Assembly: GCA_902528805.1 (NCBI GenBank)
Contig: CABZUC010000002.1
Span: forward strand, 1-64,000
Direction of reading: 5' to 3'
Origin: an uncultured Alphaproteobacteria bacterium
GTDB taxonomy: Bacteria > Pseudomonadota > Alphaproteobacteria > HIMB59
Length of the DNA stretch: 64,000 nucleotides
The notes under the pieces were generated by a model. It was not told where the DNA came from. It did not search any database and worked only from the letters and a program-made list of their open reading frames with translations. Shown here in pieces: positions 16,444 through 21,110 of the stretch. Position numbers and translations under genes: made by a program. How positions within the stretch are numbered: position 1 is the first letter of the stretch; each line of letters opens with the position of its first letter.

Positions 16444-16510
16444 TACAGTAAGAAAGGGATAATAAGCAAAAGACCTGTTAAATCAAATAAAAATGCTTTT
16501 TATATTTTTT

Positions 16511-16600
16511 TGGTGCAGCCGGATCAGGAATCGAACCTGCATCTTCCCTCCCCGCAAGAAATCTCAGTCTGGGACGCTTTTCCATTTAAGCTAAGGCCGC
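16511..16600 (-). tRNA. Atypical tRNA-like element (90 nt including encoded CCA); amino-acid identity uncertain
   Basis: Minus strand GCGGCCTTAGCTTAAATGGAAAAGCG...GCAGGTTCGATTCCTGATCCGGCTGCACCA: GCGGCC/GGCTGC acceptor pairing, 4-bp D-stem GCTT/AAGC with loop GG, T-arm CAGG-TTCGATT-CCTG and CCA. Anticodon/variable region folds poorly; possible anticodon GAG in CTGAGAT. Confidence 0.5.
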
Positions 16601-16626
16601 ATAGGTTAAATTCTGTATGAAAGTCA

Positions 16627-16854
16627 TTATTTTCCATATTTAGGAAGCACCGGGGGCTCGGGTACTTTAGGTATCGTGCACTGCTCTTTGTTGGCGGGTA
16701 ATTTATCAAAAGGGCGTGTTACCCAGATGTGTGAGAAGATAATATCGCCATTTTCATTTTGAAAGCATTTCTTACCAAAATGAAGCTGACTGTGGTTTTG
16801 CTCATCAGCGACATACAAAAATAAGACTGCTACGAGGAAATGTAAAAAAGTCAT
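16627..16854 (-). CDS. Small exported protein, unknown
   Basis: 75 aa, hydrophobic N-terminus MTFLHFLVAVLFLYVADE, two Cys, Pro-rich C-terminus; overlaps the upstream gene by 4 nt. Confidence 0.5.
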   Translation of the reverse strand: MTFLHFLVAVLFLYVADEQNHSQLHFGKKCFQNENGDIIFSHIWVTRPFDKLPANKEQCTIPKVPEPPVLPKYGK

Positions 16855-17618
16855 GATTTTAGTCCTTTCTGGGAATAATTGAGATTGGCCATAATGGGAT
16901 CAGGTATTTTTTTGCAGTGCTTGTGCGCTCTGTCCATGGCCTCTTCTATTTGTGGCATGGCCCACTGAATTGTTGGTAAGTCTATAAATGTTCTTAAGGC
17001 AACTGACTCCTCTACGGGAACATCGGTGACTGTTAAACGCGAGCGTTTATGAAAAGTATAATATTCTTTGATGGTTTCATGACCATAGGACCCCATCCCT
17101 ATTAAAATCATGTGTCCGTTTTTGTAGGGGTATATTTCCATAACCATCCCCGTCGTGGTATGGCCGTTTTCCTGGAGCTCAATTTCTTGATCGATTAATT
17201 TTGTGAGATCAGGGTGAGTTGAAAGTGTAAATAATTCAAAAAATTGGAGGACACGGTCACAATTATTTTTAGTCATCACAAAGATAATATTTTCTGAGTC
17301 CTCGATATCTCCACTGCGTTCGATTGCGATCATTTCCTCTTCCAGCAATTGAATATTCCAGCCATGAAATTTTTCCAAGGTCATCGCTGAAGTTGTGGAA
17401 ATAAAAAAAGAAGAGGTAAATATTAATATTAAATATTTTCCTCTTTGTACTACGGCGTATTTGGAGGATGAAACAAGCCGTAGCACAGAAAGGAACCATG
17501 AAAAAACCACCTCAATACTTCCTCTCCATTTTTTGTGTTTGTCATATAAACCCTTGGTAGGAAATGACTTAGAGAAGGAGTAACTAGAAAATAGAAAAGA
17601 AGAGAGAGGTCTTTGCAC
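16851..17618 (-). CDS. Exported protein of unknown function (true start probably downstream of 17618)
   Basis: Internal signal-peptide-like KYLILIFTSSFFISTTSA precedes a globular region (MTLEKFHGWNIQLLEEEM...); lies downstream of the channel gene. Confidence 0.55.
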   Translation of the reverse strand: MQRPLSSFLFSSYSFSKSFPTKGLYDKHKKWRGSIEVVFSWFLSVLRLVSSSKYAVVQRGKYLILIFTSSFFISTTSAMTLEKFHGWNIQLLEEEMIAIERSGDIEDSENIIFVMTKNNCDRVLQFFELFTLSTHPDLTKLIDQEIELQENGHTTTGMVMEIYPYKNGHMILIGMGSYGHETIKEYYTFHKRSRLTVTDVPVEESVALRTFIDLPTIQWAMPQIEEAMDRAHKHCKKIPDPIMANLNYSQKGLKS

Positions 17619-17673
17619 TGAAGACCAAAGTATTGAATTTTAGAGATAAAGATTGGGAAGAAATTAATTAATT

Positions 17674-19059
17674 TTAGACAGAAATACTTGTCCCAGGCAT
17701 GTTCCAATTATTTGTTATCCCCCACCATAAAAGAGCCATGAGAAGATGATAGGTTATTGGAACAAACCATCGAAGTTTCCTATCAATTGTATTGTAGAGA
17801 CCAGTTTGCTGATCTCGATGATAATCCCAATAACTCCATATGGTAATCATGGTAGATAAGCCAGCGAACAGGTATGAGAGCAAAATCCAAGCATCTAAAA
17901 CAGTGATATAGTTTAATTTTGGAACATCGTCACCAAACACAAAGTTATAGGCAACAAGTGTTAACAAGCTTCCCATTGAAACTGCTAGCTTTGACTCGAG
18001 TTCTCTTGCTCGAATGTAAAAGACACTAAAGGATAAATAGACCAGAAAGATTACTGGGAGAATAATCTTCAAGACGTAGTAAAAAGATTTACGGTTGAGA
18101 TCAAAACTGTAATCCAGTGTCTGGAGTACTCCTTGCCCGTAAAGTTGAGTATCGCAACAGTTAAGACGATGTTCATTAATTTTCCATTCATACAAAATAT
18201 CATTGCCTTGGCTGATAGTAATCTCTGGGTTGTAACGTGGGGGGGCGCTTAGATCAATATCCTGAAATATAAAATCTGCAGATGTAGAAATATCATCAAA
18301 AGGGAATTTTCTAAAGTCTGAGGAATTAGTTACCTGATAATTAATTTGCTGCTTTAGGATAAAATTAAATGGAACAGATTGATCATTTGTAATCAGTAAA
18401 CTTTTAAAGGTTACATCGTTTATAAAAGATCCTACTTGTGTCGTTTCAAATGTGGGATACCAAATTTTTTGTAAAATGTTTTCAAGTTCGGCTGACTTTC
18501 TATAAATACATTTAATGGGTGATTTATCTAAATCTGTTAAATTAAAGAAATTATGTATTAAGTCTTCATTTTGCCATTGCAAATAAACTTCTAAATTTAG
18601 ATTGGACTTGCTGCTTTGCTGGGTAACCTCAAAATCATTTAAGATTATATTTGCTTCAACTATGGGGTGGCCTAAGTAAGGAATGCGTTTCAGGTCGATT
18701 ATCTCTTCCTCACCGTCTTGGTGTTGAACGGTTAATGTGAGGTCTCTCATTGCTGAAGTCTCTAATAAGTTAGACAAGAAGAGATGAGCATCGCTATCAT
18801 CAGAAGCAACTGGTTTTTGATCAACCGCCAAAATACGGTCTCCGACCTCAAGAGGGGTAATAAAAGCATAGGAACCGAAGCGTTTTTTGTTGATAATTGG
18901 TTGATTTTGCTCAAGAACCACGCCACTGTCGTTATAGGCTAACCGGATATTAGATGTTTCTCTGAAGTCTTTTTTTAAGAGTCGCTCACAAATCTCTGCT
19001 CCCCAACTCACGCTGGAGAAGAAAACCCAGACACCTACAAAAATCCCCCTTAGTAACAA
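17674..19059 (-). CDS. Prokaryotic pentameric ligand-gated ion channel (Cys-loop receptor superfamily) homologue with N-terminal PDZ-like domain
   Basis: Signal peptide; PDZ-like segment GDRILAVDQKPV...LTLTVQHQDGEEEIIDLKR; extracellular domain VEANIILNDFEV...NLEVYLQWQNEDL, IWYPTFETTQ, FRKFPFDDISTSADF; four TM helices from KSFYYVLKIILPVIFLVYLS through ESKLAVSMGSLLTLVAYNFVFGDDVPKLNYITVLDAWILLSYLF to the M4 near the C-terminus. Confidence 0.85.
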   Translation of the reverse strand: MLLRGIFVGVWVFFSSVSWGAEICERLLKKDFRETSNIRLAYNDSGVVLEQNQPIINKKRFGSYAFITPLEVGDRILAVDQKPVASDDSDAHLFLSNLLETSAMRDLTLTVQHQDGEEEIIDLKRIPYLGHPIVEANIILNDFEVTQQSSKSNLNLEVYLQWQNEDLIHNFFNLTDLDKSPIKCIYRKSAELENILQKIWYPTFETTQVGSFINDVTFKSLLITNDQSVPFNFILKQQINYQVTNSSDFRKFPFDDISTSADFIFQDIDLSAPPRYNPEITISQGNDILYEWKINEHRLNCCDTQLYGQGVLQTLDYSFDLNRKSFYYVLKIILPVIFLVYLSFSVFYIRARELESKLAVSMGSLLTLVAYNFVFGDDVPKLNYITVLDAWILLSYLFAGLSTMITIWSYWDYHRDQQTGLYNTIDRKLRWFVPITYHLLMALLWWGITNNWNMPGTSISV

Positions 19060-19060
19060 G

Positions 19061-19525
19061 CTAAAGTGATTTTAGCACACTCTTAATTTTACTCAACTGA
19101 TCATCCAATTTTTGGATGTCTTGATAGATTTTCTCTTTTTCATGAGGAACTATTTTTGCTCCTCCAGAGCTCTTCTCATCCATCGACTCACGCACCGCGT
19201 CCATTAAATCTCCCAGCCTTCCCCCGATCGCCAATATCTCTGATTGCACCTCGCTTTCACTTGCAGGTTTTTCAGGTTGCGCTGTTGCCAGGTAATCTTT
19301 CAGAAAATTACTAAAAGGAGTTTTTTGATAAATTTTTTGCATGGCATGCTCTAAAAGAATGACAGTTCTAAATTGGATGTTCCTTTCATGATCATCAGGA
19401 TCGGCACACTTGTAGATATATGATTTGGACTTACCGGTAATCTCTTGGATGTCTTGATCGCTGAGATTTTTTAGGACATCTTTAAGGGTGTGTTCGATGG
19501 TGATAATTTCTTTGGTTTTAGACAT
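19061..19525 (-). CDS. HTH-like DNA-binding protein, probable regulator
   Basis: HTH-like LSDQDIQEITGKSKSYIYKCADPDDHERNIQFRTVILLEHAM plus coiled-coil-like C-terminus; stop is next to the channel start. Confidence 0.5.
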   Translation of the reverse strand: MSKTKEIITIEHTLKDVLKNLSDQDIQEITGKSKSYIYKCADPDDHERNIQFRTVILLEHAMQKIYQKTPFSNFLKDYLATAQPEKPASESEVQSEILAIGGRLGDLMDAVRESMDEKSSGGAKIVPHEKEKIYQDIQKLDDQLSKIKSVLKSL

Positions 19526-19557
19526 ACCCCACTATAGCAATTTATGATAAGGGGGTA
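19525..19557. promoter_or_regulatory. Possible operator: spaced inverted repeat TACCCC-N21-GGGGTA
   Basis: TACCCC at 19525-19530 and GGGGTA at 19552-19557 in the 104-bp divergent intergenic region, abutting the 19525 start codon. Confidence 0.3.
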
Positions 19558-19629
19558 ATCAATAATCTATGTCCAAAAGTAAAAAAGCTTTAGACTATTT
19601 TAAAAAATGTTTTTTCTCATTATAGGTGT

Positions 19630-19944
19630 ATGAAGTCTAATTATATTACCCCTACTTTAACTGGAGGATCCTCCTCCGATAAAAAATTTGAACCCCAATC
19701 CCTAAGCAATATCGAAGAGTATTTGCGCTGCCTTGCTCATATCAGGGTTGAGAATAATATTTCAGTTGAGGATGTAATGCAGCATTTGAATTACTCTCGT
19801 AGCACCCTTGATGCTCTTGAAAATGGTGATTTGGAATTTATCCAGTATCCTCTGAACTACTTCTTTACCAGGCAGTATGCCTCTTATTTAAATGTGCCCT
19901 TTCCTCAGCAATTCCTAATGAGCCATTTCAAGCCAGGAGATTAG
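19630..19944 (+). CDS. Small HTH protein (HTH_25/RodZ-N-like)
   Basis: IEEYLRCLAHIRVENNISVEDVMQHLNYSRSTLDALENGDLEFIQYPLNYFFTRQYASYLNVP. Confidence 0.7.
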   Translation: MKSNYITPTLTGGSSSDKKFEPQSLSNIEEYLRCLAHIRVENNISVEDVMQHLNYSRSTLDALENGDLEFIQYPLNYFFTRQYASYLNVPFPQQFLMSHFKPGD

Positions 19945-19949
19945 AAGTA

Positions 19950-20477
19950 ATGAGGGTTCTATTATTATTATTTATCAGTACTTTTTTAACTAATTGTACG
20001 TTGAAGGCTGAGAGTAACTCCATTCACCATGAGTTTGATAACTGGATACATATGGAGGCCAAGGAAGACAACCTCGATTTGGTCTTTAGCTTAGAGAACA
20101 GTGAACGAATGATTATTTTTATCGTCGATCCCAACTTAAGTTGTGATGCTCGGTTAGTTTACACTAATCGTGAATTTGAGCCCCAGGATTTTGACATCAT
20201 GAGTGGTGAGACTTTCGATTGGAATCTCTCAGGGCAGACATACGACGGCAAAGATGCCAGTCGATTAAATGCAGACGGATATGTTCGGTGGGAGCTGATG
20301 AGTTTTTACAAACATCACTTCTCCAAGCTTGAAGATTTGTTATCTAAAAGAGGGCAGATTTCATTTTCAATCAACGACCCTCTCAATCGATTTGAAAAAC
20401 AAGAAATACAAATGAAAGCAAATGGGCTTAGTTCTGCTCTTGTCAGTGCCCTTGATACTTGCCAGGGGTGGACATGA
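19950..20477 (+). CDS. Exported protein, unknown (lipoprotein-like or IalB-like)
   Basis: Signal peptide MRVLLLLFISTFLTNC; C-terminal MKANGLSSALVSALDTCQGWT. Confidence 0.6.
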   Translation: MRVLLLLFISTFLTNCTLKAESNSIHHEFDNWIHMEAKEDNLDLVFSLENSERMIIFIVDPNLSCDARLVYTNREFEPQDFDIMSGETFDWNLSGQTYDGKDASRLNADGYVRWELMSFYKHHFSKLEDLLSKRGQISFSINDPLNRFEKQEIQMKANGLSSALVSALDTCQGWT

Positions 20478-20923
20478 TAAAAAAATTATTATGTTTATTC
20501 TTATTCATGAGTTGGTCCTTACCTATAAAGGCAGAAAATAAGCCTGCAGCAATTTTTGTGCTTGGTAGTTTAGATAATGACTTGAAGCAATTATTTAAAG
20601 AAACGATTGATGACCAGATACACAGTTATGCTCAAACAATCAGTGTAGGATCACAATCAAATATTTATGTCTTTCCCTATCGCAGTCAAGATCAGTGGCA
20701 AGTGGTAAGTCTACATGTAGAGGGCAATGAAAAGCATATAGACCTTCTTGGTCTTACTTTTGAGGGTCCCCCACTTCGTTCTTTAGATGAAATCCGCCAG
20801 CTGGTAGGTCTAGATGGCTCCCTTAAATATATCGGTTGGAGTAGCTATGATGAGCTCCCTCCAGAAAAGGTTTTTATTGCTTCCAAAATTATCGCTCAAG
20901 ATTATCTATACTTGTATTTTTAA
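20459..20923 (+). CDS. Exported protein, unknown
   Basis: Signal peptide MIKKLLCLFLFMSWSLPIKAE; overlaps the previous gene by 19 nt. Confidence 0.6.
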   Translation: MPGVDMIKKLLCLFLFMSWSLPIKAENKPAAIFVLGSLDNDLKQLFKETIDDQIHSYAQTISVGSQSNIYVFPYRSQDQWQVVSLHVEGNEKHIDLLGLTFEGPPLRSLDEIRQLVGLDGSLKYIGWSSYDELPPEKVFIASKIIAQDYLYLYF

Positions 20924-20933
20924 CAAATCCTCA

Positions 20934-21110
20934 GTGAGCGTTTTGCTCTTTGTTTGCTTGATGTCTTTTCAAAGTGGTTTTGTCCCTTTAGTGGTCACAG
21001 TGGGTGTCTTATTGTATAAGTGTGTGATCTTATTTTTTTACTTAACCTACAGTTATCAAAAATCATCAACTCCATCGATAGCTGAAACCACCATTAATGA
21101 CTCAATATAG
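20934..21110 (+). CDS. Possible small hydrophobic protein (GTG start, 58 aa)
   Basis: VSVLLFVCLMSFQSGFVPLVVTVGVLLYKCVILFFYLTYSY...; 3' part of ORF 20814-21110. Antisense overlap with 21056-21268. Confidence 0.25.
   Translation: MSVLLFVCLMSFQSGFVPLVVTVGVLLYKCVILFFYLTYSYQKSSTPSIAETTINDSI

Follow-up and report, generated by a model that had tools for sequence, protein, structure and literature searches.

A mobile gene cassette in HIMB59 Alphaproteobacteria encodes a pentameric ligand-gated ion channel with an additional N-terminal domain

The window analyzed here, a stretch of 64,000 nt of contig CABZUC010000002.1 (assembly GCA_902528805.1) from an uncultured alphaproteobacterium of the HIMB59/AEGEAN-169 clade, carries at positions 16627-20923 a pentameric ligand-gated ion channel (pLGIC) with a domain new to this class of receptors, encoded within an undescribed mobile gene cassette. 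An initial annotation of this locus had placed seven open reading frames (ORFs) in two facing operons and proposed that the channel, its exported neighbors, and two DNA-binding proteins form one functional unit. All seven ORFs were confirmed by our ORF check, and the proposal of a unit is supported by the comparisons below, in which the block is kept and is present or absent as a whole at one site; we consider it highly probable that the cassette is one unit. Four features had escaped that annotation, namely a PDZ domain on the channel, a tRNA-like gene, the mobility of the block, and a link to the intramembrane protease PrsW. The cassette comprises the following features:

16503-21039: inserted unit, with TATTTTTTT at both edges
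16514-16602, minus strand: tRNA-like RNA gene with an encoded CCA, at the end of the channel operon
16627-16854, minus strand: X75, a short exported or membrane-anchored protein, the final protein-coding gene of the channel operon
16851-17618, minus strand: X255, an exported beta-rich protein
17674-19059, minus strand: channel (pLGIC subunit), with a signal peptide, PDZ, ligand-binding domain, and four transmembrane (TM) helices
19061-19525, minus strand: R154, a helix-turn-helix (HTH) regulator, the first gene of the channel operon
19526-19629: divergent promoter region, with a -10-like box and an inverted repeat
19630-19944, plus strand: H104, a stand-alone HTH_25 protein (RodZ-type HTH), the first gene of the facing operon
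19950-20477, plus strand: E175, a probable outer-membrane lipoprotein
20474-20923, plus strand: E154, an exported protein with a C-terminal L-x-F
About 20850-21110, plus strand: small membrane protein of family c10 (window ORF 20814-21110), overlapping the 3′ end of E154

Only 1 nt separates R154 from the channel and 55 nt separate the channel from X255, with a 4-nt overlap between X255 and X75 and a divergent gap of 104 bp between H104 and R154. E154 was listed with a TTG start at 20459; translation probably begins instead from an ATG at 20474, which overlaps the E175 stop. Comparing the window with loci L031 and L032, each ORF showed a nonsynonymous divergence (dN) of 0.00-0.06 against a synonymous divergence (dS) of 0.13-0.51. 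This low dN, together with frames conserved in nearly every readable relative, indicates that the ORFs are real genes and, judged from these substitution patterns, every gene of the block is under purifying selection.

Conservation of the Block

Close relatives of the channel were all found in the HIMB59/AEGEAN-169 marine clade, in loci derived from single-amplified genomes such as AG-916-M14 and AG-891-G06, which have been assigned to HIMB59 genomospecies (PMC10734472). Wherever the flanks were readable, the order X75-X255-channel-R154 facing H104-E175-E154 was constant, including loci with channels of 54-69% identity. The initial annotation had named homologous channels without these neighbors as one observation that would speak against a unit. 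Using the channel as an anchor, we recovered the whole block, in unchanged order, from close relatives with readable loci and channels of 54-97% identity. With channels 34-35% identical (L053 and L054), the channel operon and H104 are kept, E154 is lost from both loci, and E175 is lost from L054; for more distant channels, R154 and/or a PrsW protease adjoin, and the exported proteins are not kept.

Across the order (n = 162 genomes), the channel was detected in 35 genomes, R154 in 38, and both in 34, with R154-channel pairs lying ≤60 bp apart in 32/38; no genome of the genus had R154 without the channel. Fisher tests gave p values of about 2e-29 for the order, 2e-13 for the genus, and 2e-4 for the sister family, uncorrected for relatedness and hence overstating independence. 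Given this overstatement, the better argument for a unit is that the block occurs in different chromosomal contexts, with flanks that differ between L044/L045, L049, L053, and L054. The cassettes of relatives also hold extra genes, which encode X183 (described below), a zinc-ribbon protein, and a protein of 107 aa. In one locus (L039; G026:C7:41553-44182), the cassette is disrupted: stops or frameshifts interrupt R154, the channel, and X255, through either decay or an assembly error.

Insertion Site and Mobility

The block is a mobile unit, as a single site occurs both occupied and empty. In seven cassette-less genomes (G022, G156, G019, G160, G013, G031, and G003), Z70 and fadJ lie 69-116 bp apart, and at filled sites, they are separated by 4.6-30.6 kb, the window being the minimal case (4.6 kb). 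One of the empty sites (G031) retains a scar of the end of the small membrane protein, consistent with deletion. The unit is bordered by a 9-bp T-rich repeat (TATTTTTTT, 16503-16511 and 21031-21039); within the 4.6-kb unit, there is no integrase, nor are there clear att repeats beyond this edge repeat. A phage origin was considered and rejected, as no channel homologue turned up in phage records or in scans of IMG/VR made for the channel and R154.

Presence within the genus is patchy (32/52 genomes). Past the tRNA-like element, seven loci (L037, L039, L042, L044, L045, L052, and L056) carry assorted defense genes, including a type III restriction-modification (R-M) system, type II methyltransferases, PDC-M33A, an MkoA-like helicase, an MzaB/MzaC-like pair, and the MTES_1575 nuclease-helicase; a NERD helicase with DrmE_C also occurs at the site. 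The window's own island contains no defense gene, and a PADLOC search of the cassette proteins gave no effector match, just HTH-level matches.

The tRNA-like gene (16514-16602) scores 20.8 bits against the Rfam tRNA model, short of the gathering threshold of 29, and ARAGORN calls tRNA-Trp or tRNA-??? at the corresponding position in the distant relatives L044, L045, and L049. It folds into a cloverleaf-like structure whose acceptor, D, and T stems are kept with compensatory changes, with an anticodon-side loop of ~20 nt in place of a normal anticodon arm. It was found in 21/60 relatives, all of them cassette-bearing. An ordinary tRNA serving as an attachment site was rejected, as the gene is absent from cassette-less genomes; an apparent N-terminal extension of the 176-aa zinc-ribbon ORF in relatives was likewise discounted as read-through of the tRNA-like gene and not protein.

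Fold and Signature Residues of the Channel

The channel scores 29.8 bits against the pLGIC TM profile PF02932 (cut-off 28.1), and its sequence matches solved GLIC, sTeLIC, and GABA-A structures at 1e-13 to 1e-14. Its AlphaFold2 (AF2) model (pLDDT 76.6) displays a beta-sandwich extracellular domain and four TM helices, with Foldseek matches to pLGICs at E 1e-16 and a VIA Z of 22.9 over 319 residues (root-mean-square deviation 6.4). The FPFD pro-loop (F252-D255), the pre-M1 R323, and the M1 P335 are invariant in 19 channel sequences. Aligned on GLIC, M2 invariantly has E355 at the -2′, K357 at the 0′, and L366 at the 9′ position; this pattern is that of cation channels, and the pore is probably cation-selective. 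The main group of channels carries a vicinal cysteine pair (C301-C302) in loop C, flanked by predicted strands 292-300 and 312-323, and in most family members a tyrosine follows five residues later. The K+ channel family PF07885, the wrong family for this protein, had no match in the genome. In a class-wide scan of 385 alphaproteobacterial genomes, just five genomes outside HIMB59 gave a channel match, all weaker.

The new domain is a PDZ-like block of ~85 residues (about residues 40-128), a fold assignment that rests on the full-length AF2 model and a profile search. A profile of eight family members retrieved 192 chains from the PDB up to E 1, and the matches listed were PDZ proteins; the best was the PDZ of an Aquifex site-2 protease (1.8e-6), followed by DegP and eukaryotic PDZs, with RseP also among the matches. 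The channels of L049 and L044 match the same Pfam PDZ families as that of the window. The block is absent from the L053, L054, and L055 channels and is therefore a module that is gained and lost. A PDZ on a pLGIC was not found in the papers searched, where the N-terminal additions described are periplasmic binding proteins (PBPs), Cache, MCP-N, and jelly-roll domains.

A candidate ligand for this domain is encoded in the facing operon. In 25 of 26 family members, the C-terminus of E154 reads Phi-L-[YH]-F; the remaining member is a disrupted ORF in L039. Among background ORFs, 2/296 have a Phi-x-F ending. The tail fits a class II PDZ-ligand pattern. No E154 match was found in L053 or L054, both with PDZ-less channels. 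On these sequence grounds, E154 is a candidate ligand of the channel PDZ.

Regulators and Exported Proteins

R154 resembles phage CII/CP76 proteins and R-M control proteins. Against PF06892, the window's copy scores 13.6 bits (gathering threshold 26), with 9/10 family members matching (best E 8e-4), and the PADLOC Control_protein model is matched at 2.9e-4. H104 scores 30.0 bits against PF13413 (cut-off 24.6) and is conserved in relatives. Between the two genes, a TATAGT -10-like box (19531-19540, minus strand) lies immediately upstream of the R154 ATG, and an inverted repeat (GTCCAAA-N11-TTTAGAC) spans 19571-19595; both box and dyad persist across the aligned cassettes, even those whose channels are ~35% identical. 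Relatives of R154 also occur without a channel in G053, G059, G088, and G113, and sister-family regulators of the R154 type were seen with no channel nearby (L107:7880-8344, L108:7837-8511, L109:4747-5226, and L110:7467-7949).

The initial annotation recognized no family among the exported proteins, and our Pfam, PDB, and PADLOC-type searches likewise gave no confident match. Pfam matches of the cassette neighbors, taken up to E 1, include no PBP-II or Cache domain. X75 is conserved behind X255 in cassettes (dN 0.03-0.06 vs dS 0.40-0.51), with its frame not called in L044 and L049. The AF2 model of X255 is well predicted over residues 79-236 and matches no PDB structure at E < 0.05; profiles of X255 and E175 had no match among PDB sequences. 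The start of X255 is uncertain because a conserved Ser/Phe-rich stretch of ~57 residues (window 17450-17618) precedes the signal-like helix. In many relatives, X255 is followed by a second homologue, X183 (hhalign E 4.6e-12). X183-like homologues (E about 1e-32) were also seen in sister-family genomes G064, G066, G078, and G037, with no channel detected there.

E175 has an invariant C16 within lipobox variants (LISC, IASC, FVGC, and MVSC in relatives), making it a probable outer-membrane lipoprotein. Its strong matches (E < 1e-70) all fall in channel-bearing genomes (29/29). Homology of E175 to X255 was considered and is not claimed (hhalign probability 38%, E 3e-4), and comparison of X183 with E175 gave no homology. 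The small membrane protein c10 is a conserved ORF in 19 loci.

Exchange of the Channel and Related Loci

Between L034 and L051, the genes neighboring the channel differ by a dS of 0.10-0.33, and the channel itself by a dS of 1.9 and a dN of 0.28. This divergence begins near codon 30, the first 30 codons having a proportion of synonymous differences (pS) of 0.05; between L041 and L034, the channel differences lie mainly in the TM half. The pattern is best read as the channel alone having been swapped, by allelic exchange through recombination between close relatives, with the rest of the block constant. Such swapping suggests rapid change in what the channel recognizes.

Second channels (about 30% identical) in G017, G033, G034, and G152 adjoin PrsW and an R154 homologue, and sister-family channels also lie beside PrsW (1e-25 to 1e-34 across PrsW loci) and an R154 homologue. 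In G155, a different channel locus, PrsW-linked and without R154, occupies the same Z70-fadJ site; PrsW genes are not all near a channel. In L083:6564-8899, PrsW and a channel are overlapping genes at the Z70-fadJ site, used elsewhere by the main cassette. A second channel cassette was seen in L035, L043, L055, L056, and L057 (e.g., L057:6447-12717), in the order of an R154 homologue facing c22, a MerR/HTH_17 protein, c24, the exported c25, the ~30% identical channel, PrsW, the exported c41, and two coiled TM proteins. NERD-helicase genes follow channel-PrsW loci in two families (L055:898-5261, with a DrmE_C-like protein, and L084:8947-13334).

Possible Function of the Cassette

We tentatively favor, at slightly below an even chance, reading the cassette as a module for envelope sensing that is mobile and regulates itself, with a homopentameric, probably cation-selective pLGIC bearing a periplasmic PDZ as its receptor. 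The mechanism that we propose for this module is held a little more loosely again. R154 and H104 would control the shared divergent promoter via the conserved GTCCAAA dyad. The exported proteins, placed in the periplasm or outer membrane (with E175 and X255 in the same compartment), would present or report a ligand, and the invariant L-x-F tail of E154 would dock in the channel PDZ, much as outer membrane protein tails of the Phi-x-F type dock in the PDZ of DegS. The conformational change from docking, together with ligand in the pLGIC site, would open the pore, and cation influx would be the output signal. Docking is proposed because the class II-like tail is kept in 25/26 members and E154 is missing where the PDZ is missing.

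Several points count against this envelope-sensing reading. The block encodes no output pathway (kinase, chemoreceptor, or sigma factor), and the regulators beside the channel may control just its dosage. The Pfam PDZ scores are below threshold, both for the window (PDZ_2, 17.7 vs a gathering threshold of 27) and for the best relative (PDZ_6, 21.6 vs 27). The joint absence of PDZ and E154 comes from two related genomes, possibly through one event. Finally, E175 is missing in L054 and L091 and is, therefore, not essential to the core.

The alternative that survives best is one of conflict or anti-phage defense, where the channel would be an effector that depolarizes the membrane and remains shut until its PDZ or ligand-binding domain is reached by envelope damage or by a factor of phage or competitor origin, and the regulators would limit its dose. 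The varied defense genes past the tRNA-like element, the NERD helicase after the sister-family PrsW-channel locus (L084), the patchy presence in the genus, and the resemblance of R154 to R-M control proteins would all fit, as would channel swapping as part of an arms race. However, no cassette protein is a PADLOC effector, the window's island is without a defense gene, and hotspots gather unrelated cargo. We consider this reading unlikely.

Less probable again is a small-solute chemosensor, as proposed for bacterial pLGICs (PMC549065), where ligand binding at the classical site would be signaled by ion flux and exported proteins would pre-concentrate the solute. The block does resemble earlier pLGIC neighborhoods with their periplasmic binding proteins, and the channel has the classical ligand site, including vicinal cysteines in loop C, yet the exported proteins here have no periplasmic-binding-protein or Cache match, there is no chemotaxis gene in the block, and both the hotspot setting and the E154 tail would be left unexplained. 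Ranking behind the chemosensor is a more elaborate conflict reading, in which the PDZ channels and their PrsW-linked relatives would be the receptor/effector of an undescribed mobile conflict system (anti-phage or anti-toxin); envelope damage would expose C-termini or free E154, the PDZ would sense this, and the pore would depolarize the cell, with the receptor diversifying by recombination and the rest of the cassette constant. That unrelated genes were merely stacked in a hotspot by repeated insertion is very improbable: the site is an insertion hotspot of very variable content, but order and orientation are fixed at several chromosomal places and at 34-35% channel identity, and within the genomes searched, strong E175 matches and the tRNA-like gene are confined to those that carry the block.

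Comparison with Known Systems

None of the pLGICs of unicellular organisms has a known biological role, and this includes GLIC in vivo (PMC4795631). A recurring mobile block with fixed partners makes such a role testable, in terms of the gating partner, the controlling regulator, and the target of the exchangeable ectodomain. Our literature search did not find a PDZ-pLGIC fusion, a nicotinic-like loop C cysteine pair in bacteria, a PrsW link, or a cassette-specific tRNA-like RNA.

The best sequence and fold matches, GLIC (Gloeobacter) and sTeLIC, share with the cassette channel the fold, FPFD pro-loop, pre-M1 arginine, M1 proline, and M2 signature; the cassette channel differs in the PDZ in front, the loop C vicinal cysteines (main group), and the conserved mobile gene context. 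DeCLIC (Desulfofustis), also a pLGIC from a bacterium, likewise carries an additional N-terminal domain in the periplasm, formed there by two jelly-roll lobes that make up about half of the protein (PMC12664993), whereas the cassette channel has one PDZ of ~85 residues.

The channel resembles nicotinic alpha subunits in having two adjacent cysteines ahead of the final strand of the ligand-binding domain and, in most members, a tyrosine five residues on. Unlike them, it is bacterial and has no Cys-loop; over the fold, it is about 19-20% identical to animal receptors. This cysteine dyad was stated to occur just in animal cation channels (PMC549065), and its presence in a bacterial channel may be convergent.

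The DegS/RseP envelope stress system shares the periplasmic PDZ, that of the channel being closest to site-2-protease PDZs, and an E154-type Phi-x-F tail is like the tails of outer membrane proteins. In the cassette, however, the PDZ sits on an ion channel and not a protease, and there is no sigma/anti-sigma pair.

Finally, the pLGIC neighborhoods described by Tasneem et al., who mention no PDZ, also group the channel with exported proteins in one operon (PMC549065). The partners there are PBP-II or Cache proteins, whereas the cassette pairs its channel with proteins of no assigned class, one lipoprotein, a pair of HTH proteins, and a tRNA-like RNA, joined in relatives by PrsW.

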